This document shows, one piece after another, positions 4,215 to 32,311 of a stretch of 32,686 nucleotides of DNA; the first letter of the stretch is position 1, and every line of letters starts with the position of its first letter. The position numbers and the translations under genes were made by a program. This stretch comes from Flavobacteriales bacterium (lineage in GTDB: Bacteria > Bacteroidota > Bacteroidia > JACJYZ01), in NCBI GenBank assembly GCA_020435415.1, contig JAGQZQ010000033.1:1-32686 (forward strand), written 5' to 3'. The notes below the pieces were generated by a model. That model was not told the DNA's origin, did not search any database, and worked only from the letters and a program-made list of their open reading frames with translations.

Positions 4215-4275
4215 TGTTTTTTGGTTTTTGTCAAGGTAAGACAAAAATGATACCAAAAAATAACAGCACGTGTGG

Positions 4276-6555
4276 TTATTCTTCCGAAAGGAGGGAGGCG
4301 GCCTCATCCAGCGTGATGGTTTCTCCTTCGTGGAGGGCAACCATCTCCGGTTGTTTTACCCCTGCGTTGGTGGCATCTGAAAGAAATGCCTTGGCCTGGT
4401 TGTAAGTATCGAACTCTTCTGAATGGTAGCGAACGAACTCTTCGTCGCCGGTCTCATCTTTTACAGCACCTTCCAGTGAAAGTACGGCGGTCAGATCATC
4501 CACCGGGATATCGCCACGGAATTCTGCCAGGACCACCATGAACTTCACATAATCGTCCGACATTTCCGCAAGGGAGGGGTCTGATTCAAATGGGTTTTCT
4601 GTCGGAACGGCCATGGACTGGTCGGCGCTGTCGGTGGTCATTTCAGGTGGCGCAACCTCTTCCATTGTATCATCTGAAGATTGCTGTTCACCGTTGTCAT
4701 TTTCAGGGGCGGCCTGTTCATTGTCCTGGTGGTTTTCCTGATCCTGATGATCTTCTTCTTCCTGTTTGGGTGCATTGTTACCATCGGATGGCAGCACGGG
4801 ATCATTTGCAGGGGTGGTTTTCTCCTCTTTACCCGCAGCCTCTTCCGCAGCCAGGGCCTGGGTGATGTTGATTCGCTTTCCGTCCTTGTAGGCCACGACA
4901 AAGGCTCCTTCAAACCCTTTCACCAGCATATTGATCTTATGATCGACTGCCTCTTTGTACTGGTAGAATGTTCCGGACATGTATTTATACATTCCGTTTT
5001 CGGTTTTCAGACTGTTCAGGTCTTTGATGCCATGGAAGGTTTCTTCCGGAACCACCTTGCTGAAGGCACCCAGCTGAACCCGGTACAGCACCTTGTCAAA
5101 GGACATGGTTTTCTCATCTTCCGTTTGTTCACCCTGCAGTCTGGTCACCACTTCTTCGTCGATGTCAACACCGCGGAGGAATTCAGGAACCCACTGTACG
5201 ACTTCCGTACCAGATATGCCGGAGTTTTCCAGCACCTGTCTTCTGACTTCCGCTTCTTCAGCCGTGCGGAAAGACCCAACGGTGATGACCGTTTGTCCTT
5301 TGTCGTTCTTTTCCGTACGCAGATCCTCGAGGTTGAGGAAGGCGTCCATCATATCGGCGGGAATCCCTTCATCAAAGGTTCCTACAAGAATCCGGTATTC
5401 TGCTTCTTCCTGTATGTGTTGTCGTGAATCAAAACCGAAGTCCCCGGTGCTGTCGATGTACTCCATGTAAATATCCAGGATGACTTTGGGTGTCATGAGT
5501 TTCCCCCTGGTATCAACCAGGGTATCCTGCAATGTGGCGGGCTCTTCATCACGGAAGTTGGGGATGCCGTCATTGTCGTCATCCATAGGGCATCCGTGCA
5601 GATCAACCGGTTGTCCTTCGGGTGTTTCCGGACACAGATCATCCACATCCTTTACACCATCCATATCTTCATCTGTTTCTCCGAGTACAAAAAAGTCGAC
5701 GCCCTGGAAGTGCAGGTCATCTTCGGTTGGACTCAGGTTCAACAGATAGCTTGCACCGAAGTAGGTAAACATAAACTTGTCGTTACCGCCGCGGCCTTTT
5801 CTGCCACCTTCACCTTCTTCTGTGATGTTGTCGATAAAGTCGGTAAGGGTATAGTGAAAGTTGGTACCTACTTTAAAACTGATCTCCGGAGTAATGTTCA
5901 TGCTCACACCACCTCCAACAGGGATCACAAAGGATGTCAGGGGATAATTACCAAAGCCATCCAGGTTGGTATTCTGCAAGTTGGTTTCGTAGACATAGTC
6001 TCTTTGAAGGACAATGGAGCTACCGGCATTCGGATCAGACTCGGCCATATTCCGGATGGATCCGTCGTCCCAGTAATAGTAAGGTTCATTATTTGCGTCA
6101 AACAGATCCCCTTTTGGTTTGAAATACATGTAGGATATACCCAGGTTCACATAAGGCGTGAGCACGCGTTGTGAAGGAAGGAATGTACTGAAATCATAGA
6201 ATGCCTGAAAGCCTCCGGAGTAGATCGGGGTTTGAAAATTCAGGTTACGTTCGAGGCTTTTTTCGCTGGCTTCCACTTTACCGGCAAGGAAAAAGAAGCC
6301 GACATGGAAGGCAGGTTTAATTTCTTGTCTGATCTCCAGTTGAAATCCGGGTTTGGTTTTATATGGTTCATTCAGCTGGTCGTAGCCAACATCACCATAA
6401 AAGCGCATCATACCGGCTTCCAGCGTGAATTCGGGTTTGATAGGGAAGGGGAGGCCTTTGGCCGTATCCTGGGCGAAGGCTGTACCGCATGCGGTTGCAA
6501 TCAGTAAAAAACAAACGCCAAATCTCAAAAACCCGTTCTTAATCATAGGATTCAT
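4276..6555 (-). CDS. Outer-membrane barrel protein with TSP3 repeats and three SPOR-like modules
   Basis: This is a 759-residue envelope protein. Residues 1-29 are a Sec signal peptide ending in TAFAQ. Roughly 30-280 resemble an outer-membrane beta-barrel (alternating strands, aromatic-rich). Around 293-340 are Asp-rich calcium loops of thrombospondin type 3 form (DEDMDGVKDVDDLCP, DDDNDGIPNFRDEEP). SPOR-like modules follow near 384-455 (YRILVGTF...) and 490-565 (YRVQLGAFSK...). An acidic Gln/Asn/Glu linker comes next, and a third related module (MVVLAEFRGDIP...) occupies 668-759. SPOR domains bind denuded septal peptidoglycan, so the protein may tie the outer membrane to the wall; that role is inferred. 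The barrel is a paralogue of the one at 8021-9415: both share FYGDVG, RNLNFQ/E and a YYYW-DG-IRN segment. There is no OmpA domain. Confidence 0.82.
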   Translation of the reverse strand: MNPMIKNGFLRFGVCFLLIATACGTAFAQDTAKGLPFPIKPEFTLEAGMMRFYGDVGYDQLNEPYKTKPGFQLEIRQEIKPAFHVGFFFLAGKVEASEKSLERNLNFQTPIYSGGFQAFYDFSTFLPSQRVLTPYVNLGISYMYFKPKGDLFDANNEPYYYWDDGSIRNMAESDPNAGSSIVLQRDYVYETNLQNTNLDGFGNYPLTSFVIPVGGGVSMNITPEISFKVGTNFHYTLTDFIDNITEEGEGGRKGRGGNDKFMFTYFGASYLLNLSPTEDDLHFQGVDFFVLGETDEDMDGVKDVDDLCPETPEGQPVDLHGCPMDDDNDGIPNFRDEEPATLQDTLVDTRGKLMTPKVILDIYMEYIDSTGDFGFDSRQHIQEEAEYRILVGTFDEGIPADMMDAFLNLEDLRTEKNDKGQTVITVGSFRTAEEAEVRRQVLENSGISGTEVVQWVPEFLRGVDIDEEVVTRLQGEQTEDEKTMSFDKVLYRVQLGAFSKVVPEETFHGIKDLNSLKTENGMYKYMSGTFYQYKEAVDHKINMLVKGFEGAFVVAYKDGKRINITQALAAEEAAGKEEKTTPANDPVLPSDGNNAPKQEEEDHQDQENHQDNEQAAPENDNGEQQSSDDTMEEVAPPEMTTDSADQSMAVPTENPFESDPSLAEMSDDYVKFMVVLAEFRGDIPVDDLTAVLSLEGAVKDETGDEEFVRYHSEEFDTYNQAKAFLSDATNAGVKQPEMVALHEGETITLDEAASLLSEE

Positions 6556-8020: not shown

Positions 8021-9415
8021 TTATTGTTCAAAGAAATAGTCGATCAAACGGTAAAGGCCTTCGATGTCGAACGAACCGACACCCTCAAAGAATTCATCGA
8101 TCACAGCGGTGATCTCTTCCGACGAGATAAACCCGTCATTGTTTTTATCTCCTGCCCTCAGGCCTTCAGGAATATTGGATGATCCGCTGGTGCCCGTTCT
8201 GTTCTTTTCAGACATCTTTTCGTAGATGGCATCCAGGGTGGAGCGGTCCATGGCCAGGGTGTCGCCGCGATTGGCGCGTTCCTGGAGCATTTCATCGGTG
8301 ATGACCATACCTTCCGCATTCACCCTCGATCCGGGTCGCGAGTTGGGTTCCTGGTCTCTGTAGTCGGGTACACCGTCCTTATCAGAATCAACGGGACAAC
8401 CTTTGCTGTCGGATTTAACGCCGATGGGTGCGTCGGGACAATCATCTTTCAGATCAGATATGCCATCGCCGTCACTATCTGTTGCATCGATAGAAGCAAA
8501 GTCAAATGTTTTGTATTCTTCCTTATCCTTCTTCCGCTGGTCTCTGCCGGGGTCACCACCTCCAAATCCATAGTGAAGGGCTACATTGGAATAGAGGTAA
8601 CGGTCGTTGTCGAAGAACCCACCGTTGTCATCGAAGTCATCGACATTATCTGAAAAGATAAAATTGTAGGAGGCGCCTATGCGGGCATCGAACCGGTCAC
8701 CCAGTTTCAGTTTCAGTCCGAATTGAAGCGGAAGGGTTACTGAACCGTGGCTGTATTCGCTGCCGGTGCTGTCCAGGCTTGTTTCATAGGTATAATCCCG
8801 CAAAATTTCTGTTCCGGCGGGATTGCTTTCATCGGCGTTACGGATGGTACCGTCAGACCAGTAGTAGTACTTCTGATTGTTGGCGTTAAGCAGATCTCCC
8901 TTCGGATTAAAGAACATATAGCCGATGCTGGCACCCAGGTATGGTGTGAACTTGGCGCCTCTATCCATGATCACATCATTATCGAAGTGAAGGGTGAAGC
9001 CCAGGTCTACCTGAAATAAACTTGATTCGAAGTTCAGGTTACGGGTGAGAGATCTTTCCTGCTTGGAAATCTTGCCTGTGTGAATGCCCAGGTCCAGGCC
9101 GATCAGGTTTCCCAATCGTCTTTCGGCGGTGAGGTTGACACCTTTTCTGAAATGGCTGAAAGAGCTTCGGATGGTATTGTTCTCAACCTTACCGACATCA
9201 CCGTAAAAGGAGTAAAGGCCAACGCCAAAACCCACAGACCAAAGTCGCAGAATGTCATTTGACGGTGGCCGGATCTCCTGTGCTTTCTCCTCAGCCTTGG
9301 CTTCCTTTTTATTCTGCGTCGGCGACTCTTCACCGCCATCCTGAGCCTTCACTCCAGCAGAGAGTAACAAGGCCGCCGAAAAAGATAGGGTGTAAAGTTT
9401 GTGCTTTGAGATCAT
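8021..9415 (-). CDS. Outer-membrane barrel protein with TSP3 repeats and EF-hand-like end
   Basis: The gene encodes 464 residues from the ATG at 9415. The frame extends to 9451, but a Sec signal peptide (MISKHKLYTLSFSAALLLSA, then GVKAQ) begins at 9415, so I chose that start. A beta-barrel-like region follows (near 60-300), paralogous to that of the 4276-6555 protein. TSP3-type calcium loops come next (DSDGDGISDLKDDCPDAPIG and DSDKDGVPDYRDQEPN). The C-terminus has an EF-hand-like loop (DKNNDGFISSEE) and the end DYFFEQ. It lacks the SPOR-like modules of its paralogue, so the duplicated barrel seems to have gained different tails. It heads the envelope set and probably sits in the outer membrane; calcium binding is inferred from the Asp loops. 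Confidence 0.82.
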   Translation of the reverse strand: MISKHKLYTLSFSAALLLSAGVKAQDGGEESPTQNKKEAKAEEKAQEIRPPSNDILRLWSVGFGVGLYSFYGDVGKVENNTIRSSFSHFRKGVNLTAERRLGNLIGLDLGIHTGKISKQERSLTRNLNFESSLFQVDLGFTLHFDNDVIMDRGAKFTPYLGASIGYMFFNPKGDLLNANNQKYYYWSDGTIRNADESNPAGTEILRDYTYETSLDSTGSEYSHGSVTLPLQFGLKLKLGDRFDARIGASYNFIFSDNVDDFDDNGGFFDNDRYLYSNVALHYGFGGGDPGRDQRKKDKEEYKTFDFASIDATDSDGDGISDLKDDCPDAPIGVKSDSKGCPVDSDKDGVPDYRDQEPNSRPGSRVNAEGMVITDEMLQERANRGDTLAMDRSTLDAIYEKMSEKNRTGTSGSSNIPEGLRAGDKNNDGFISSEEITAVIDEFFEGVGSFDIEGLYRLIDYFFEQ

Positions 9416-25256: not shown

Positions 25257-25301
25257 TATGATCTCAATCATATTTCGCTATTTAATTTACACCGAATTTT
25301 G
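25257..25301 (+). promoter_or_regulatory. FNR/CRP-type palindrome plus -7 element ahead of the oxidase-like gene
   Basis: TATGAT-CTCA-ATCATA (25257-25272) is a perfect 6-bp inverted repeat whose core TGAT-N4-ATCA equals the inner part of the FNR consensus TTGAT-N4-ATCAA. Thirty bases after the 14-bp core (ending at 25271), GAATTTTG (25294-25301) matches TAnnTTTG at five of six fixed positions. That puts the palindrome centre near -41 to -43 from the likely start of transcription, the class II activator position. The same spacing recurs at 26641-26684. The gene starts at 25321, giving a leader of only about 13-16 bases. Confidence 0.7.
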
Positions 25302-25320
25302 AAAGGCTGAAAATCGAATT

Positions 25321-26622
25321 ATGGGAATGACGGAGCAAGGTACTACTGCCCCCTCTTCAATTAGATCTGGACCGGAAGATAGATTACTCCGGAAGTGGCT
25401 GAGAACTGCGCTTTATTTTTTTCTTGCCGCATCCATTCTGGGAGTTTTGATGCGATTTATGTTCGTGACGGAGGTGCCTTTTTTGAAATACAAGCATATT
25501 CTTCACTCTCACTCGCATACGGCCATGCTTGGCTGGATTTTTATGCTTTTAACCGCAGGGATGATATACTGCCTGCCAGGTTTACTGCCACTTAAAAACT
25601 ACCGGCTTATTTATGTACTGAACATAATTGCTGTTGCAGGAATGCTTGTGTCTTTTTTATGGCAGGGTTACGGAGCGATCAGTATCCTGTTTTCCACTCT
25701 CCATATTATTACCATGTACATTTTTGCTTTCATGTTCTTAAAAGCTATTATAAAACGAAGTCCTTCCGAAAGTAAAGTGTTTTTCAAATGGGGAGTGATA
25801 TGGATGGTGGTTTCCAGTCTGGGTATTTGGTCATTAGGAGTAACAAGCAGCCTGCTCGGCAAGCTTCACCCTTTGTTCTATGCAAGCGTACAGTTTTTCC
25901 TGCACTTCCAGTTCAACGGCTGGTTTACCTATACAACCATTGGTCTTTTAATACACTACCTGAATCGTTCAGGCAAGCAGGTTAAAATTCCCGGATATGT
26001 TTTCGTTCTGATCCAGCTATCGCTCCTGCTCACATATACCCTAAGTATTACCTGGAGCAATCCGCTCGAAATATTATTCCACCTGAATGCATTAGGCGTG
26101 ATCCTGCAGCTGATTGGTTATGGCCTGGTATTGAAGGATATTTTCAAAGTGTTGTTCTCCGGAAAAAAACCGTGGAGCACCTGGTCCGACCGTCTCATCC
26201 TGGCAGGTCTTTTCAGTCTGTTATTTAAGATCCTGATACAGGCTTTGGTAGTTTGGCCTTCGGTTGCGGTTATTTCCTATACTATCAGGAATTATGTCAT
26301 TGCATTCATTCACTTGATCATGCTGGGTTCCATTACCTTTAGTATTTGCGGCATCCTTTTAAAGGAGCAGGTACTTCCATTGAATCGTACGGCAAAAACC
26401 GGCTGGATCTTGTTGCTGGCCGGATTTCTGTTAACGGAATTCACCCTGTTCGGACAAGGAACCATGTTCTGGATGGGACAAGGCTTTATTCCCGGATATT
26501 ATCTCATACTGCTGGTCTTTACACTCCTCATACCTCTGAGTATCATTTTCATTCTTCGCGGGTTCCGAACATCCGGCAAAAAAGCCTGGCCATTAAATTT
26601 CTTGAACAACTTTTTGGTATGA
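25321..26622 (+). CDS. Polytopic membrane protein, heme-copper-oxidase/NnrS-like
   Basis: The 433-residue protein has about 12 membrane segments and no signal peptide. Histidines fall at helix-like positions: HILHSHSHTAMLGW (H59, H62, H64, H66), KLHPLF (H183), FFLHFQFNGWF (H195) and IAFIHLIMLGS near residue 335. The HxHxH...GW pattern in the second segment recalls the low-spin heme helix of subunit I in heme-copper oxidases and NO reductases, and the heme/copper protein NnrS. The full HPEVY-type and HxH copper-site motifs of true oxidases are not obvious. I recall similar proteins beside nos and nor genes in Bacteroidota, unnamed. A start at 25327 (MTEQ) is possible. Its promoter is built like that of the nosZ operon, so a role in nitric-oxide or nitrous-oxide metabolism or sensing is likely, but inferred. 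Confidence 0.75.
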   Translation: MGMTEQGTTAPSSIRSGPEDRLLRKWLRTALYFFLAASILGVLMRFMFVTEVPFLKYKHILHSHSHTAMLGWIFMLLTAGMIYCLPGLLPLKNYRLIYVLNIIAVAGMLVSFLWQGYGAISILFSTLHIITMYIFAFMFLKAIIKRSPSESKVFFKWGVIWMVVSSLGIWSLGVTSSLLGKLHPLFYASVQFFLHFQFNGWFTYTTIGLLIHYLNRSGKQVKIPGYVFVLIQLSLLLTYTLSITWSNPLEILFHLNALGVILQLIGYGLVLKDIFKVLFSGKKPWSTWSDRLILAGLFSLLFKILIQALVVWPSVAVISYTIRNYVIAFIHLIMLGSITFSICGILLKEQVLPLNRTAKTGWILLLAGFLLTEFTLFGQGTMFWMGQGFIPGYYLILLVFTLLIPLSIIFILRGFRTSGKKAWPLNFLNNFLV

Positions 26623-26640
26623 CTAACTTCAGCTAAATAT

Positions 26641-26684
26641 TTGATTGAAATCATAATAAAGAACTTCAACGACTTATATTTTTG
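26641..26684 (+). promoter_or_regulatory. FNR box plus -7 element ahead of the cytochrome c-nosZ operon
   Basis: TTGAT-TGAA-ATCAT (26641-26654) matches the FNR consensus TTGAT-N4-ATCAA at nine of ten fixed positions. Thirty bases after its end, TATTTTTG (26677-26684) is a full TAnnTTTG -7 element. The box centre therefore lies near -41 to -43, typical of class II activation. A low-oxygen or NO-responsive Crp/Fnr regulator is the natural candidate; no such regulator is encoded in this window. The first gene starts at 26705. Confidence 0.8.
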
Positions 26685-26704: not shown

Positions 26705-27235
26705 ATGAGAAAGATCAAAACATTCGCACTACTCTCGCTCACTTACTTATTTATCTGGTCTTGCGGGGGAGGAGGAGAAGGAAGTAAATCTGACCCGAAC
26801 CGTAAAAGCACGACGGGTACTTCGGAAGAAACTACAGAAGCAAAAGAAGTACCTAAAGCAGGCAATCCGAAAGGCATCGGAGAGATCAAAGAAGTCAAAC
26901 TGACGGACCCATTAGATGAAAATATGATAGCCAGCGGAAAGGCCATTTATGAAATGAAATGTTCTGCATGTCACAAACTGACCGACCAAAAGGTTGTTGG
27001 ACCGGGGTGGGCAGGTGTTACCAACAGACGAAGGCCAGAGTGGATCATGAACATGATCACTAATGTGGATGTTATGCTGGATAAAGATCCACAGGCACAA
27101 AAACTGCTCGAAGAGTGTTTGACCAGAATGCCAAATCAGGGAGTATCAACCGGAGATGCCAGGAACGTCCTTGAATACATGCGCAAAAATGATCTTGAAC
27201 AAACCAACAGTAAAGACCAGGCCGTAAAAGGTTAA
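26705..27235 (+). CDS. Mono-heme cytochrome c lipoprotein, probable electron donor to NosZ
   Basis: The product has 176 residues. The N-terminus is a lipoprotein signal peptide (FALLSLTYLFIWSC, Cys20 with Ile-Trp-Ser before it) followed by GGGGEGSK and a Ser/Thr/Glu-rich linker of about 50 residues. The class I cytochrome c domain begins near residue 75 with IASGKAIYEMKCSACHKLTD (heme motif CSACH). It contains VGPGWAGVTNRR and an axial Met in TRMPNQGVST, and ends with an EYMRKN helix. It would be tethered to the membrane facing the periplasm. NosZ follows after 12 bases in the same operon, so delivery of electrons to CuA is the likely role. It is the first gene after the FNR box. The split lipid anchor/flexible tether/heme layout fits a shuttle. 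Confidence 0.92.
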   Translation: MRKIKTFALLSLTYLFIWSCGGGGEGSKSDPNRKSTTGTSEETTEAKEVPKAGNPKGIGEIKEVKLTDPLDENMIASGKAIYEMKCSACHKLTDQKVVGPGWAGVTNRRRPEWIMNMITNVDVMLDKDPQAQKLLEECLTRMPNQGVSTGDARNVLEYMRKNDLEQTNSKDQAVKG

Positions 27236-27247
27236 ATCCGTAAAATT

Positions 27248-29236
27248 ATGAAAAAGAGAAGTTACATTCAATATTTATCGGTTCCGTTCGCTGTACTTGC
27301 AACACTTGCATCTTGCCAAAATAAGGATGTTAAAACAGTCGTGGAGGGTAATGTTACTGACCAGGTTTATGTAGCACCAGGCGAATATGATGAGTTTTAC
27401 GCCTTTTTATCGGGAGGTTTTAGTGGACAGATCACTGCTTATGGCCTTCCTTCAGGAAGATTATTAAAAGAGATTCCGGTATTTTCAGTTTATCCTGAAA
27501 ATGGCTATGGATACAGCGAAGAAACCAAAGCTATGTTCAATACCTCTTATGGTGTAATTCCCTGGGATGATTCTCACCATATAGAACTTTCTCAAACCGA
27601 CGGGGAGTTCGACGGCAGATGGTTATTTGTAAATGGCAATAATACCCCCCGCATTGCCCGCATTGACCTAACTACCTTTGAAACTGTGGAAATACTGGAA
27701 ATTCCGGATGTTGCAGGATTGCATTGCGCTCCGTTTGTAACTGAAAATTCGGAATACCTTGTTTCAGGTACACGCTTCAGTTTACCTATTCCTCAGAAGG
27801 ATGTTCCCATCAGTTCCTACAAAGAAAACTTTACCGGACTTATCAATTATGTATCCGTTGATGCCAAGACAGGTGAAATGGACCTGGCTTTCCAGATATC
27901 CATGCCCGGTTTTAACTACGATCTGGCAAGGAATGGAAAGGGGAAATCTCATGGCTGGAGTTTCCTTACAACGTATAACTCAGAACAGGCGCACACCTTA
28001 TTGGAAGTGAATGCTTCCCAAAAAGACAAAGACCTGATGGCCATCATCAACTGGAAAAAGGCTGAAGAGTATCTTAAGCAGGGGAAATTCACCGAACGGA
28101 CTACTTCGTACTTCCATAATTTAATCGATGAAAAAACCGGCATTGCAGCATCACAAGAAATGAAAACCACCAGGATCATCGATCCTAAGGAATGCCCCGG
28201 TATGGTCTATTTCATTCCCGTTCCCAAATCACCGCACGGTTGTGATGTCGACCCATCCGGCGAATACATTGTCGGAAACGGTAAACTTTCTGCTGACATG
28301 AGCATTTATTCATTCGATAAATTAATGGCTGCCATAGAATCGAATGATTTCGCAGGAGACATTGACGGCATTCCTGTGATCAATTATGAATCCGGCTTGC
28401 ACGGTATACTTACCAAGCCTGGACTTGGCCCTCTTCACACGGAATTCGACGGCAAGGGATTTGCCTATACTACCTTTTTCATTTCTTCTGAAGTTGTAAA
28501 ATGGAATGTGGAAAAACTGGAAGTGGTAGACAGGCAATCAACTTTCTACTCACCTGGCCACCTTGTTATTCCCGGTGGAGAAACAAAAAAACCATTTGGC
28601 AAATACCTGGTGGCAATGAATAAGATCACCAAAGACCGTTATCTTCCGACAGGTCCGGAACTGGCACACAGCGCCCAGCTTTTTGACATCTCCGGAGATA
28701 AAATGAAATTGTTGCTGGATTTCCCAACCAAGGGAGAACCTCATTACGCACAAGCCATACCGGCCTCCAAAATACAACCGAACTGCAAGAAATTCTATAA
28801 AATAGAAGAGAACAAGCATCCTTATGTAGCCAAAGGTGAAGGACAGGCAAAGGTGGAAAGAAAAGGAAACGAGGTCCATGTGTATATGACGGCCATACGA
28901 TCTCACCTGGCCCCTGATAACATTGAAGGTGTGAAAGTAGGGGACAAGGTTTATTTTCATGTGACCAACCTCGAACAAGACTGGGATGTTCCTCACGGTT
29001 TTGCCATGCAAGGGGCTGCTACCGCTGAAATACTAATCATGCCTGGGCAAACACGTACCCTTCTTTGGGAGCCCGGATCAGTTGGTATTTATGCATATTA
29101 CTGCACCGACTTCTGCTCTGCTCTGCATCAGGAAATGTCTGGTTATATGCGTGTGTCTGCCCAGGATTCGAATGTGCCGCTTAGGTGGTCGCTTGGCGAG
29201 AATATTGAAGACAAGGTAGAAATTCCTGAAAGTTAA
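27248..29236 (+). CDS. nosZ: Nitrous-oxide reductase, clade II (Sec-type)
   Basis: This 662-residue protein reduces N2O to N2 in the periplasm. The signal peptide has no twin arginine and ends in ATLASCQNK, a lipobox with Cys23, so this is a Sec-exported, probably lipid-anchored clade II enzyme. All CuZ ligand regions are visible in the beta-propeller: DDSHHIELSQTDG (H110, H111), AGLHCAPF, SPHGCDVDPSG, GPLHTEF, SPGHLVIPGG and GEPHYAQA. The C-terminal cupredoxin domain has the CuA site CTDFCSALHQEM (C619, C623, H627, M630) and an upstream His in DVPHGFAM. Nothing essential is missing, so it should be active once copper-loaded. It lies between its cytochrome c donor and the accessory genes. A hairpin sits after its stop codon. 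Confidence 0.98.
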   Translation: MKKRSYIQYLSVPFAVLATLASCQNKDVKTVVEGNVTDQVYVAPGEYDEFYAFLSGGFSGQITAYGLPSGRLLKEIPVFSVYPENGYGYSEETKAMFNTSYGVIPWDDSHHIELSQTDGEFDGRWLFVNGNNTPRIARIDLTTFETVEILEIPDVAGLHCAPFVTENSEYLVSGTRFSLPIPQKDVPISSYKENFTGLINYVSVDAKTGEMDLAFQISMPGFNYDLARNGKGKSHGWSFLTTYNSEQAHTLLEVNASQKDKDLMAIINWKKAEEYLKQGKFTERTTSYFHNLIDEKTGIAASQEMKTTRIIDPKECPGMVYFIPVPKSPHGCDVDPSGEYIVGNGKLSADMSIYSFDKLMAAIESNDFAGDIDGIPVINYESGLHGILTKPGLGPLHTEFDGKGFAYTTFFISSEVVKWNVEKLEVVDRQSTFYSPGHLVIPGGETKKPFGKYLVAMNKITKDRYLPTGPELAHSAQLFDISGDKMKLLLDFPTKGEPHYAQAIPASKIQPNCKKFYKIEENKHPYVAKGEGQAKVERKGNEVHVYMTAIRSHLAPDNIEGVKVGDKVYFHVTNLEQDWDVPHGFAMQGAATAEILIMPGQTRTLLWEPGSVGIYAYYCTDFCSALHQEMSGYMRVSAQDSNVPLRWSLGENIEDKVEIPES

Positions 29237-29311: not shown

Positions 29312-29905
29312 ATGAAGAGTATCAAACAGTTGCCGAGAATTCTTATGTTCATTGCGATCATAAGCTTGTGTGGTGTATTCCTCTTCCCCTTATGGAAAAT
29401 TACACTGGATGCTGCCCAGTTCCCGGGAGGACTGGAGCTTAATATCTGGATCAACAGGTTTTCAGGTGGTGAAGAAGGAGAATACATTATTCAAAATATC
29501 AACATCCTCAATCATTACATCGGCATGCAGTTTATAGAGCCGGACTCCATTCCGGAACTTATTTACTTTCCCTATGTGATCTTTGGTATGCTACTGCTCG
29601 GGATCATCTCCATATTGATCAACCGCCAATGGGGATATGTAAGCTGGACAACCTTGTTGTGCATTCTGAGCGGACTGGGAGTCTACGATTTCTATTTATG
29701 GATGTATGATTACGGACATAACCTGGATCCGAATGCCCCAATCAAAGTGTCTGGCATGACCTATATGCCTCCGTTGTTCGGAGAAAAAGACCTGCTGAAT
29801 TTTTATGTCGCCTCCTACCCTGCAACGGGAACTTTTTTTCTCTGTGGAACCATAATGCTGGCTTTTCTGGCCTTCTATTTTTCAAAGAAAACACAGAACC
29901 AATGA
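29312..29905 (+). CDS. Conserved membrane protein of nos clusters, function unknown
   Basis: The 197-residue protein has an N-terminal membrane segment (ILMFIAIISLCGVFLFPLW), a periplasmic stretch, two central membrane segments (near 90-110 and 112-130), a second loop (YDYGHNLDPNAPIKVSGMTY) and a last segment near 170-190. Segments such as FPLWKITLDAAQFPGGLELN and NINILNHYIGMQ recall a family I have met next to nosL/nosD in other phyla, without an assigned function. The His and Met residues in the loops (NHYIGM, YGHN, GMTYMPP) could bind copper, but that is a guess. It has the only perfect Shine-Dalgarno here and overlaps nosL by 4 bases (ATGA). Its last segment shares an 11-residue identical stretch with the NosL signal peptide. 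Confidence 0.85.
   Translation: MKSIKQLPRILMFIAIISLCGVFLFPLWKITLDAAQFPGGLELNIWINRFSGGEEGEYIIQNINILNHYIGMQFIEPDSIPELIYFPYVIFGMLLLGIISILINRQWGYVSWTTLLCILSGLGVYDFYLWMYDYGHNLDPNAPIKVSGMTYMPPLFGEKDLLNFYVASYPATGTFFLCGTIMLAFLAFYFSKKTQNQ
29831..29863 (+). repeat. Direct repeat, copy 1 (within the membrane protein gene)
   Basis: This 33-base stretch encodes TFFLCGTIMLA (residues 174-184). It matches copy 2 at 29920-29952 at 29 of 33 positions, in the same codon phase. All four differences are at third codon positions and silent. Confidence 0.9.
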
Positions 29906-30327
29906 ACCGAATGGCCTTGACTTTTTTTCTCTGTGGCACGATTATGCTTGCTTGTACCACCAGACCGGAACAGATCAATTACGGAAAGGATCAATGTGCT
30001 TTTTGTAAGATGACCATCGCTGAACTAAAGTTTGGTGCCGAACTGGTAACGGATAAAGGAAGGATTTTTAAATATGATGCTATTGAATGCCTGTTGCGCC
30101 ATATTCATGATGACGCACTTTCGTATCAAAACCTTCTTGTGGTTGGCTATGATACTCCCAAGCAACTTCACCCGATTGATTCTCTGATCTTTGTTAACTC
30201 ACCGAACTACAAAAGCCCAATGGGTGCCAACTTAGCGGCGTTTTTCCATAAGAATGCACTGCCGGAAAGCGAACGTTCCAAAGTATTGGAGTGGACAGAT
30301 CTCATGAATAAGTTCAAAACCGATTAG
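29902..30327 (+). CDS. nosL: NosL, copper-binding lipoprotein for NosZ maturation
   Basis: This 141-residue protein matches NosL, the outer-leaflet copper chaperone that delivers Cu(I) for the CuZ and CuA sites. The signal peptide ends in CGTIMLAC (Cys18), so it is lipid-anchored. The copper motif is DQCAFCKMTI (CxxCxM), followed by KFGAELVTDKGRIFKYDAIECLLRH as in the family. The later part (DSLIFVNSPNYKSPMGANLAAF) carries the typical 'SPMG' region. It overlaps the upstream membrane protein gene by four bases, and nosD starts 9 bases after its stop. The hydrophobic core of its signal peptide (residues 7-17) is a near-copy of the last membrane segment of the preceding protein. Confidence 0.95.
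   Translation: MNRMALTFFLCGTIMLACTTRPEQINYGKDQCAFCKMTIAELKFGAELVTDKGRIFKYDAIECLLRHIHDDALSYQNLLVVGYDTPKQLHPIDSLIFVNSPNYKSPMGANLAAFFHKNALPESERSKVLEWTDLMNKFKTD
29920..29952 (+). repeat. Direct repeat, copy 2 (NosL signal peptide)
   Basis: This is the second copy of the 33-base repeat, 89 bases after copy 1, encoding TFFLCGTIMLA at NosL residues 7-17. The four differences from copy 1 are all silent third-position changes. Confidence 0.9.
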
Positions 30328-30336
30328 GACACCTGC

Positions 30337-31596
30337 ATGACCGGTTCTAAATTAAGTCTGTGCCTTCTGCCTTTTCTTTTTTTGTTTTCCCCGCATGTGC
30401 AGGGTAACCGGCTGACCGTTGAAAAAAACGGCAAATTTTCTTCTATTGCTTCTGCCATTACCGTTGCAATGCCAAACGATACGGTAATTGTACAACCTGG
30501 TCGCTATAAAGAGCATTCCCTGGTCATCGATAAACCACTGACCATTACAGGATCAAAACAACCTGTTATAGATGCGGAAGAACAAGCAGAGGATATCTTT
30601 ATCATAGCTGCCAACGAAGTTCACATCTCCGGCTTTGTCCTGGAAAATACGGGAGTCAGTTATCTGAAGGAGGTTGCAGCGATAAGGGTAAAACAAGCCA
30701 AATCAGGCAGCATTGGTGAAAATACCATTCGCAACTGCTTTTTTGGGATCTATCTTGAATACACCTCCCATTTCCTTGTAAAGAATAATGAAATCAGTGG
30801 AACGATCATCAATGAAGCTTCTGCGGGAAATGCCATTCATGTGTGGAAAGGAAAGAAGATCAACATAACCGGCAACCGGGTAACCGGACACAGGGACGGT
30901 ATATATTTTGAATTCGTAGACAGCAGCCTGATCTCCCATAACAAAAGCCAGGGGAACATCCGCTATGGCCTGCATTTTATGTTTTCCAATAACGATGAGT
31001 ATCTGTTAAATGAGTTCCGGGAAAATGGTGCGGGAGTGGCTGTAATGTTCTCAAAAAAGATCAAAATGAAACAGAACCTCTTCTCAGATAACTGGGGAGG
31101 AGCTTCCTACGGACTGTTATTAAAAGAGATCAGTGACGGCGATATTATCGACAATCGTTTTTACAGAAATACTGTTGGGATCATGGCCGAAGGAGCTAAC
31201 AGACTCAGGGTGGAAAACAATGATTTCATCCTCAACGGAACCGCTCTTGATATAAAAGGAAATACGCTGGATTCAAAGATCGAAAGAAATAATTTTATCG
31301 CCAATACCTTTGAAGTGATCACCAATTCCCGATACAACACCAATACTTATAAAAATAATTACTGGAGCAATTACAATGGATATGATCTTAACAGGGACGG
31401 CACAGGCGATGTAGCCTACCGGCCGGTCAATGTGTATGCAAAAGTGACAAAAGAGATCCCTGCTGCAACGATCATGTTGCACAGTTTTATCATCCAACTG
31501 TTGGATGTTACGGAACGATTGTTTCCTACTGTGATACCGGCGGAATTAGTCGATCATGAACCTAAGATGACGCCCTGGAAGGATGATAAAAATTGA
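30337..31596 (+). CDS. nosD: NosD, periplasmic right-handed beta-helix maturation factor
   Basis: The 419-residue protein starts with a Sec signal peptide (KLSLCLLPFLFLFSPHVQG). It continues as a parallel beta-helix built from repeated Asn-rich coils (IGENTIRNCFFGIYLEYTS, FLVKNNEISG, INITGNRVTGHRDGIYFEF, RYGLHFMFSNND, RVENNDFILN). It ends with a conserved NYWSNYNGYDLNRDGTGDVAYRP segment, which is typical of NosD. NosD works with the NosFY transporter to pass a sulfur species, and receives copper from NosL, for CuZ assembly. The last 14 bases overlap nosF, so translation is coupled. Length is normal for the family. Confidence 0.95.
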   Translation: MTGSKLSLCLLPFLFLFSPHVQGNRLTVEKNGKFSSIASAITVAMPNDTVIVQPGRYKEHSLVIDKPLTITGSKQPVIDAEEQAEDIFIIAANEVHISGFVLENTGVSYLKEVAAIRVKQAKSGSIGENTIRNCFFGIYLEYTSHFLVKNNEISGTIINEASAGNAIHVWKGKKINITGNRVTGHRDGIYFEFVDSSLISHNKSQGNIRYGLHFMFSNNDEYLLNEFRENGAGVAVMFSKKIKMKQNLFSDNWGGASYGLLLKEISDGDIIDNRFYRNTVGIMAEGANRLRVENNDFILNGTALDIKGNTLDSKIERNNFIANTFEVITNSRYNTNTYKNNYWSNYNGYDLNRDGTGDVAYRPVNVYAKVTKEIPAATIMLHSFIIQLLDVTERLFPTVIPAELVDHEPKMTPWKDDKN

Positions 31597-32311
31597 AAAT
31601 ATTACCAAATCCTATAGAAAACAGGTGGTATTGGATGCAGTTGATCTGCAGCTTCAACAGGGATCGTGTATTGCACTGATCGGCCCCAATGGGTCGGGAA
31701 AGACAACCCTTATTAAATCCATTCTTGGTTTGGTTTATCCGGATAATGGATCCATCCGGATCAATAATATGGATATCAATAGCGATGCTTCCTATCGCAA
31801 ATCCATTGGTTATATGCCACAAATAAGTAGGCTGCCTGAAAACATGAAAGTCAGACAATTGTTCAGGATGATAACATTGGTCCGGGAAGACATAAAACCT
31901 CAACAGTACGACAAAGAACTTTATCAGTTATTCGAGATCGAGAAGATGGAGCATAAAACCTTAGGCAGCTTGTCGGGAGGTATGCGACAAAAGGTGAGTG
32001 CAGCCCTGGCATTCCTCTTTAATCCTCCTGTTCTTATCCTGGACGAACCTACTGCAGCCCTCGACCCGGCAGCAAATGAATATTTCCGGCAAAAAATATA
32101 CAAGGCAAAAAATGACAATAAGCTCATACTGATCACCTCACATATTCTGAGCGATCTTGAAGGGCTTGTAAATCAAGTCGTTTTTATGATGGACGGCAAA
32201 ATTCGCTTTCATCAGCCCATTGTTGAAATATCGGAAGAAACAGGAGAATCTCAATTGAATAAAATGATCGTGAGTAAACTTCAAGAAAACGGCCTTACAT
32301 GGGAAAGTTAA
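31583..32311 (+). CDS. nosF: NosF, ABC transporter ATPase
   Basis: This 242-residue ATPase powers the NosFY transporter on the cytoplasmic face. It has Walker A GPNGSGKT at 34-41, the Q-loop in IGYMPQISRLPENM, the signature LSGGMRQK at 130-137, Walker B VLILDEPTAALDP from 150 and a switch His in ITSHILSDLEGL. It overlaps nosD at its start and nosY at its end (13 bases). Sequence alone does not separate it from other ABC-2 type ATPases; the nosD-nosF-nosY order makes the call. Confidence 0.95.
   Translation: MIKIENITKSYRKQVVLDAVDLQLQQGSCIALIGPNGSGKTTLIKSILGLVYPDNGSIRINNMDINSDASYRKSIGYMPQISRLPENMKVRQLFRMITLVREDIKPQQYDKELYQLFEIEKMEHKTLGSLSGGMRQKVSAALAFLFNPPVLILDEPTAALDPAANEYFRQKIYKAKNDNKLILITSHILSDLEGLVNQVVFMMDGKIRFHQPIVEISEETGESQLNKMIVSKLQENGLTWES

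Follow-up and report, generated by a model that had tools for sequence, protein, structure and literature searches.

Predicted class II Crp/Fnr-type promoters over the TAnnTTTG element ahead of cox433 and the clade II nos operon of a Flavobacteriales bacterium

Two promoters of a Flavobacteriales bacterium, one upstream of the membrane protein gene cox433 and the other upstream of the cytochrome c-nosZ operon, carry a Crp/Fnr-type box at exactly the same distance from the Bacteroidota -7 element. Both lie in the window, the whole stretch of 32,686 nucleotides that was analysed, and their assignment as predicted class II promoters of the Crp/Fnr type is strongly supported. Read jointly, the evidence makes it very probable that these genes undergo class II activation by an FNR-like Crp/Fnr regulator placed over TAnnTTTG, with a second upstream site at the cytochrome c-nosZ promoter, as members of a low-oxygen regulon.

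The box of the cox433 promoter, TGATCTCAATCA (TGAT-CTCA-ATCA; 25259-25270, plus strand), is embedded in ATGAT..ATCAT (25258-25271) and extends to TATGAT..ATCATA. The box of the cytochrome c-nosZ promoter, TGATTGAAATCA (TGAT-TGAA-ATCA; 26642-26653, plus strand), is placed in the 82-base gap ahead of the cytochrome c gene. Both boxes are intergenic and match exactly the FNR box core TGAT-N4-ATCA, and both are followed by the arrangement ATCA-N27-TTTG, which is equivalent to 23 bases between the box and the 8-mer TAnnTTTG (gap 23). Counted from the end of the 14-mer, the final G of nnnnTTTG is reached after 30 bases in both promoters (G at 25301 and 26684), and the start codons, at 25321 and 26705, are found 20 and 21 bases past this G. 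These coordinates and distances had been put forward by a sequence-only reading of the window and are exact to the base. The same reading described the promoter geometry as identical, which holds for the spacing between box and TTTG, whereas the tandem layout presented below, which that reading had missed, fits only the cytochrome c-nosZ promoter. Its -7 element nnnnTTTG matches both promoters but hides a difference between them, the element being a perfect TAnnTTTG in the cytochrome c-nosZ promoter (TATTTTTG, 26677-26684, plus strand) and an imperfect one, with five of six positions, in the cox433 promoter (GAATTTTG, 25294-25301, plus strand). By inspection, neither promoter shows a -33 element where one would normally be expected. 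The region has no more sigma-70-type promoters and terminators than its shuffles, and an Rfam RNA search of the region gave no match.

The genes placed behind the second promoter are all on the plus strand. The first gene of the nos operon encodes a cytochrome c (26705-27235; PF00034, E 1.3e-8) and is followed by nosZ (27248-29236), which encodes a clade II, Sec-dependent nitrous-oxide reductase (TIGR04246, 907 bits, above cut-off). Further downstream are a nosL-like gene, nosD and the gene of a nosF-like ABC ATPase (29902-32311), of which NosL is below cut-off, NosD (TIGR04247) is above it and the ATPase matches ABC_tran. A gene of 197 amino acids between nosZ and nosL (29312-29905) is without any family match.

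The class II activators known from E. coli are centred at -41.5. In Flavobacterium psychrophilum, TAnnTTTG occupies positions -12 to -5 according to a start-site map (PMC9723704), so that the final G corresponds to -5, boxes at gap 23 are centred at exactly -41.5 and boxes at gap 45 at -63.5. By this calculation, with start-site positions borrowed from F. psychrophilum, another flavobacterium, both box centres of the window are predicted at -41.5 and transcription would start at about 25306 and about 26689.

The spacing recurs in whole genomes. The genome-wide work consists of pattern searches for a box followed by TAnnTTTG with a free gap; the other gaps serve as the null for the counts, and a reversed-pattern control was set aside as biased. 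In the genome of the organism itself, the exact box with TAnnTTTG at gaps of 18-48 gives 10 matches, 4 of them at gap 23. For 20 nos genomes, gap 23 collects 54 matches against 4.3 per other gap, and gap 45 collects 25. For 23 unselected class relatives, which are those among the matches listed and were not hand-picked, gap 23 has at least 28 matches, compared with 3.4 per gap. A scan of related nos loci, which the sequence-only reading had proposed as a check of the spacing, also peaks at this gap: in the 80 nosZ loci gathered across the Bacteroidota and a handful of neighbouring phyla, the gaps are bimodal, with 13 loci at gap 23, 8 at gap 45 and at most one elsewhere. Among the cytochrome c genes of nos (n=77), the gap-23 form precedes 17 and the gap-45 form 9, against 0.3 for other gaps, under a strict threshold passed by only 20 of the 77 nosZ-linked genes. 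The spacing from box to core element is base-exact, with its peak at gap 23 and a partner peak at gap 45. This enrichment strongly supports the earlier claim that one Crp/Fnr-type activator of class II would act over the Bacteroidota -7 element, a claim that is also backed by the dependence of the motif on Fnr-like genes and its adjacency to them. A gap-34 excess in the nosZ loci was considered separately and rejected, most of its matches clustering at one homologous position inside the nosZ coding sequence, with three exceptions in or near intergenic regions.

An accident would require two palindromes and two AT-rich octamers to share their spacing by chance. TGAT-N4-ATCA is by itself common, with 4 occurrences in the window against 1.08 expected. 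Only two of these are followed by TTTG at N27, and the other two (22749 and 28035) are inside coding sequence and without a -7 element at gap 23. In 100 shuffles of the window, a box with TTTG at N27 was found 0.01 times on average and two such pairs in none (0/100). Given the shuffle result and the peak at the same spacing in independent genomes, chance is rejected for the promoter set, for which it is considered extremely improbable. For the cox433 promoter alone, coincidence is a less far-fetched explanation, which is nevertheless improbable.

The boxes at gap 23 and gap 45 are related to each other by a fixed distance. In the gap-45 composites, which were chosen on one box, a second box (at least 6/8 matches) is found at -41.5, exactly 22 bp downstream, in 22 of 37; in a scan at every offset, no other offset exceeds 2. 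Reciprocally, a second box exactly 22 bp upstream is present in 12 of the 45 gap-23 composites, with at most 2 at other offsets. A tandem search, defined as two TGA-N6-TCA separated by any spacer of 2 to 30 and followed by N23-TAnnTTTG, found matches in 127 of 295 class relatives. Among the 150 tandem pairs listed, 121 are spaced by 22 bp from centre to centre, 13 by 23 and 5 by 33, and every remaining spacing is represented at most twice. The tandem counts include related genomes and are not independent events, but relatedness alone favours no single spacer. The genome-count, tandem-spacing and adjacency figures were computed from coordinates and sequences transcribed by hand from match listings. 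In the window, the cytochrome c-nosZ promoter fits the tandem form (26620-26684), which occurs once there and in 0/100 shuffles. Its degenerate upstream box, TGA-CTAACT-TCA (26620-26631, plus strand), is placed 22 bp upstream of the main box at the predicted position -63.5. The TGA at 26620 doubles as the stop codon of cox433, and given this overlap the upstream box could be a coincidence. In four loci (L079, L086, L095 and L100; about 4255-4390), a palindromic box pair is found between the nos cytochrome c gene and a divergent gene of the Rrf2 family; its gaps to the two sides are 23 and 45, so that the pair fits both directions.

The product of cox433 (25321-26622, plus strand) is a membrane protein of 433 amino acids with no curated family at 1e-3 and a COX1 profile match at E 0.058. 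Its predicted model (pLDDT 88) has a haem-copper oxidase subunit I fold and matches CcoN (TM 0.77) and NorB (TM 0.73) at 11-13% identity, and homologues are present in 32 of the 80 nosZ loci. The invariant histidines (H62, H64, H66, H195 and H331) look like fewer than an intact haem-copper/CuB site requires, and an accessory role in nos, related to NO or haem, is possible for the protein. The box upstream of cox433 was sought across relatives and is conserved in only a few of them, and no second box is found 22 bp upstream (1/8 matches). Of the two promoters, that of cox433 is the weaker case.

The genes that share the promoter form extend beyond nos. The exact gap-23 promoters of the own genome are the nosZ promoter of the window and a further three on contig C34. 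This contig is a nitrate-respiration island in which narGHJ is accompanied by the genes of two NarK transporters, by molybdenum cofactor genes and by two Crp/Fnr genes. With one mismatch allowed, cox433, narK2 and the second Crp gene (crp2) are added; with two, narK1 joins the set, as does a cytochrome c-like gene that immediately precedes narG. On C34, a minus-strand box adjoins the gene of the iron-sulphur repair protein RIC (TIGR03652), and the gene at position 1801 (L119 1801-3189), which encodes a tyrosine phenol-lyase (TIGR02618), has a perfect class II composite. On C15, a gene that resembles a universal stress protein also carries the composite, as judged by eye. The targets of the own genome comprise nos, both narK genes, modE/Moco genes, ric, tyrosine phenol-lyase and the second Crp gene. 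A gene of 623 amino acids on C34 (L119 7443-9314, minus strand) has no family match and is preceded by a weak composite (9335-9377, two mismatches), and a tryptophanase/phenol-lyase homologue of the relative L288 has the tandem form.

In relatives, ccoN of the cbb3 oxidase is found by eye downstream of about eleven of 30 tandem loci, with HMM confirmation for one of them (L298) and also for a single-box locus (L240). Other targets in relatives are hemN, hemA, truncated globin, universal stress proteins, Rrf2 regulators, cytochrome c and the tryptophanase/phenol-lyase homologue; for some, such as pyruvate phosphate dikinase and several unknowns, a link to anaerobic life is not obvious. Both the cbb3 oxidase and haem synthesis are induced in F. 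psychrophilum when oxygen is limiting (PMC9723704), which is in line with an oxygen signal. The designation of a nos regulon in the sequence-only reading was too narrow, since the targets also include nar, narK, molybdenum cofactor genes, ric, cbb3 oxidase, hemN and hemA; as predicted from its members, the promoter set is a low-oxygen and nitrate-respiration regulon rather than a nos regulon. That reading had also stated that frequent pairs of this kind upstream of unrelated genes would count against it. The pairs are frequent, but many of the identified genes are low-oxygen genes, and a minority is unexplained.

The own genome, searched for Crp/Fnr proteins as had been advised, contains five proteins with a cNMP domain, of which one, encoded on C34 (19797-20561), is FNR-like. 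This protein matches PF00027 and PF00325, both above cut-off, and misses the cut-off of the NCBIfam Fnr subfamily (98 vs 228 bits). It has C-x2-C-x9-C near the N-terminus and a further cysteine in SIICYIP, and these four residues (C13, C16, C26 and C116 in the 240-aa form) correspond to the four for a [4Fe-4S] cluster. The first and last of the cysteines align with CQDC and MVCEIP of the solved Aliivibrio fischeri FNR; the cysteine assignment is based on this alignment, the E. coli FNR sequence serving as a guide only. The four cysteines are common to most of 30 FNR-like orthologues listed. In another listing, a number of orthologues lack the third N-terminal cysteine and keep C-x2-C and the distal one; in these, the cluster may have a non-cysteine ligand.

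The recognition helix of the FNR-like protein reads E-x-x-I-R and not E-x-x-S-R. In FNR, the serine of the recognition helix is reported to read the outer base of the box, so that the isoleucine and the altered outer bases may go together. The outer bases are ATGAT..ATCAT in the cox433 box and TTGAT..ATCAT in the cytochrome c-nosZ box, neither of them the classical TTGAT..ATCAA, and among 44 non-redundant composites ATGAT..ATCAT occurs 15 times and TTGAT..ATCAA once. With an E-x-x-I-R helix and A/T outer bases instead of T/A, protein and box do not form a textbook FNR-box pair.

Few of these promoters are found where a Crp/Fnr match is lacking. Across 98 relatives, gap-23 promoters amount to 0.107 per Mb in genomes without a Crp/Fnr match vs 0.543 per Mb in genomes with the FNR-like protein (P 0.001), and there is 1 tandem promoter in the 20 genomes of the former group vs 79 in the 44 of the latter (P 1e-6). 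Genomes whose matches are all of the weaker kind, mostly CheY-Crp fusions, are intermediate, with 0.329 gap-23 promoters per Mb and 33 tandem promoters in 34 genomes, so that genome presence tells the FNR-like protein apart from the fusion regulators only in part. Composites are within 100 bp of an Fnr-like gene in 7 of 136 cases, against 0.014 expected, and in the own genome the crp2 promoter is about 46 bp past fnr on C34. In this genome and four others (G071, G036, G027 and G097), a composite promoter is placed directly behind an fnr or RR-crp gene and serves the next gene, which is crp2 in the own genome and universal stress protein-like in G071. The own CheY-cNMP-Crp fusions (L124 1055-4058 on C54 and L122 1090-3352 on C28) each adjoin a histidine kinase gene that seemingly contains a PAS domain. 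The most likely candidate for the regulator is the FNR-like protein of the nitrate island.

Other activators and modes of action have to be weighed against this candidate. Because the genomes with only weak matches also have promoters, more than one protein is a candidate regulator. At the same promoters, a CheY-cNMP-Crp fusion of the kind encoded on C54 and C28 could act as activator and would convey its signal via a two-component phosphorelay instead of a [4Fe-4S] FNR. Both fusions have FNR-like recognition helices (E-SV-IR and E-TL-VR), composites adjoin fusion-sized genes in two genomes (G028 and G097), and the intermediate gap-23 density was found in genomes whose weak matches are mostly fusions. 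However, tandem promoters are more numerous in genomes with the FNR-like protein (P 0.004), and the own FNR-like gene is amid its targets in the nitrate island, whereas the own fusion genes are elsewhere. The fusions are a serious rival to the FNR-like protein, and their role as the activator is possible, if on the unlikely side.

A protein centred at -41.5 could occlude the polymerase, and it is conceivable that the box is the operator of a Crp/Fnr-family repressor and that TAnnTTTG is active without an activator. Such a repressor would need neither the base-exact spacing nor the 22-bp tandem register; both are sharp in these promoters, and the lack of a -33 element in either promoter also speaks against this arrangement, which is regarded as highly improbable. 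A similarly remote alternative concerns the signal: an NO-responsive protein of the DNR/NnrR type, as for nos in Pseudomonas and Paracoccus, in place of an oxygen sensor. In pseudomonads, nos is under the control of DNR, whose recognition site is an FNR-like box (PMC1274295), and ric, an NO-damage gene, is within the regulon. On the other hand, the crp2 product (C34) and the Crp of C13, which are without FNR cysteines or receiver, lack the E-x-x-x-R pattern, and the cbb3, hemN and hemA targets of relatives fit an oxygen signal better, so that an NO sensor is considered very unlikely.

Activation by the FNR-like protein is the preferred reading. Computation gives the geometry, its recurrence, the target genes, the linkage to Fnr-like genes and the cysteines, from which the binding, activation, oxygen signal, transcription starts, cooperativity and regulator of the following mechanism are predicted. 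A dimer of the Crp/Fnr family would bind TGAT-N4-ATCA centred at -41.5, stand in for the -33 contact and recruit the RNA polymerase with the Bacteroidota primary sigma factor at TAnnTTTG (class II activation). The cytochrome c-nosZ promoter would offer a further, weaker site on the same helix face, 22 bp upstream, where a second dimer could bind beside the first and raise the occupancy. The FNR-like protein (C34 19797-20561) would be the activator that switches the genes on when oxygen runs out; it has the four [4Fe-4S] cysteines of FNR, and oxygen should therefore keep it inactive. The same promoter form would drive nitrate reduction, molybdenum cofactor supply and iron-sulphur repair after NO damage and, in relatives, also the cbb3 oxidase and haem synthesis.

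The scheme shares with the class II FNR/CRP promoters of E. coli the palindromic box at -41.5, which replaces the upstream promoter element, and the targets in anaerobic respiration. It differs from them in the core element (TATAAT -10 there, TAnnTTTG -7 here) and in the outer bases (T/A there, A/T here). With the FNR of E. coli and A. fischeri, the candidate regulator has in common the CRP fold, C-x2-C, a third N-terminal cysteine, the glutamate and arginine of the recognition helix and the distal cysteine in an SxxC-x-IP motif; the serine of E-x-x-S-R is replaced by isoleucine, and the spacing of the N-terminal cysteines is about x8-x10 vs x5. The control of nos by DNR, NnrR and FnrP in Proteobacteria likewise relies on an activator of the Crp/Fnr family and an FNR-like box upstream of nos (PMC1274295, PMC3541799), but in another phylum with another sigma specificity; here a clade II nosZ is part of one broad low-oxygen regulon. 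In Nitrosophilus labii, a member of the Campylobacterota, Crp/Fnr boxes (TTGA-N6-TCAA) are likewise predicted for a clade II nosZ, whose regulation is inferred to be negative; the passages considered describe no such fixed box-to-core geometry (PMC11539149). In the Bacteroidota, HcpR2 of Bacteroides is a regulator of the Crp/Fnr family tied to nitrogen oxides, but its box is GTAAC-N4-GTTAC and its regulon is hcp alone in most Bacteroides (PMC1274295). The Bacteroides coverage of that comparative study is limited to HcpR2, and a 2021 survey of CRP/FNR regulons in an anammox community reported no evidence that this family controls denitrification in the Flavobacteriales, Saprospiraceae and Ignavibacteria genomes that it covered (PMC8510549). 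A search of the literature outside subscription papers and predicted-regulon databases returned no FNR-type regulon of Bacteroidota with this promoter form, the novelty of which is provisional.

It can be held with modest confidence that the low-oxygen regulon extends across the class Bacteroidia and includes clade II N2O reduction, with dimers at -63.5 and -41.5 over TAnnTTTG and an FNR of the E-x-x-I-R type paired with ATGAT-N4-ATCAT. Many clade II N2O reducers belong to the Bacteroidota, and as a group these organisms are important natural sinks for this greenhouse gas. The base-exact promoter form provides a searchable signature of low-oxygen genes in any Bacteroidia genome, and would be a concrete case of a core promoter other than TATAAT on which class II and tandem activation operate.
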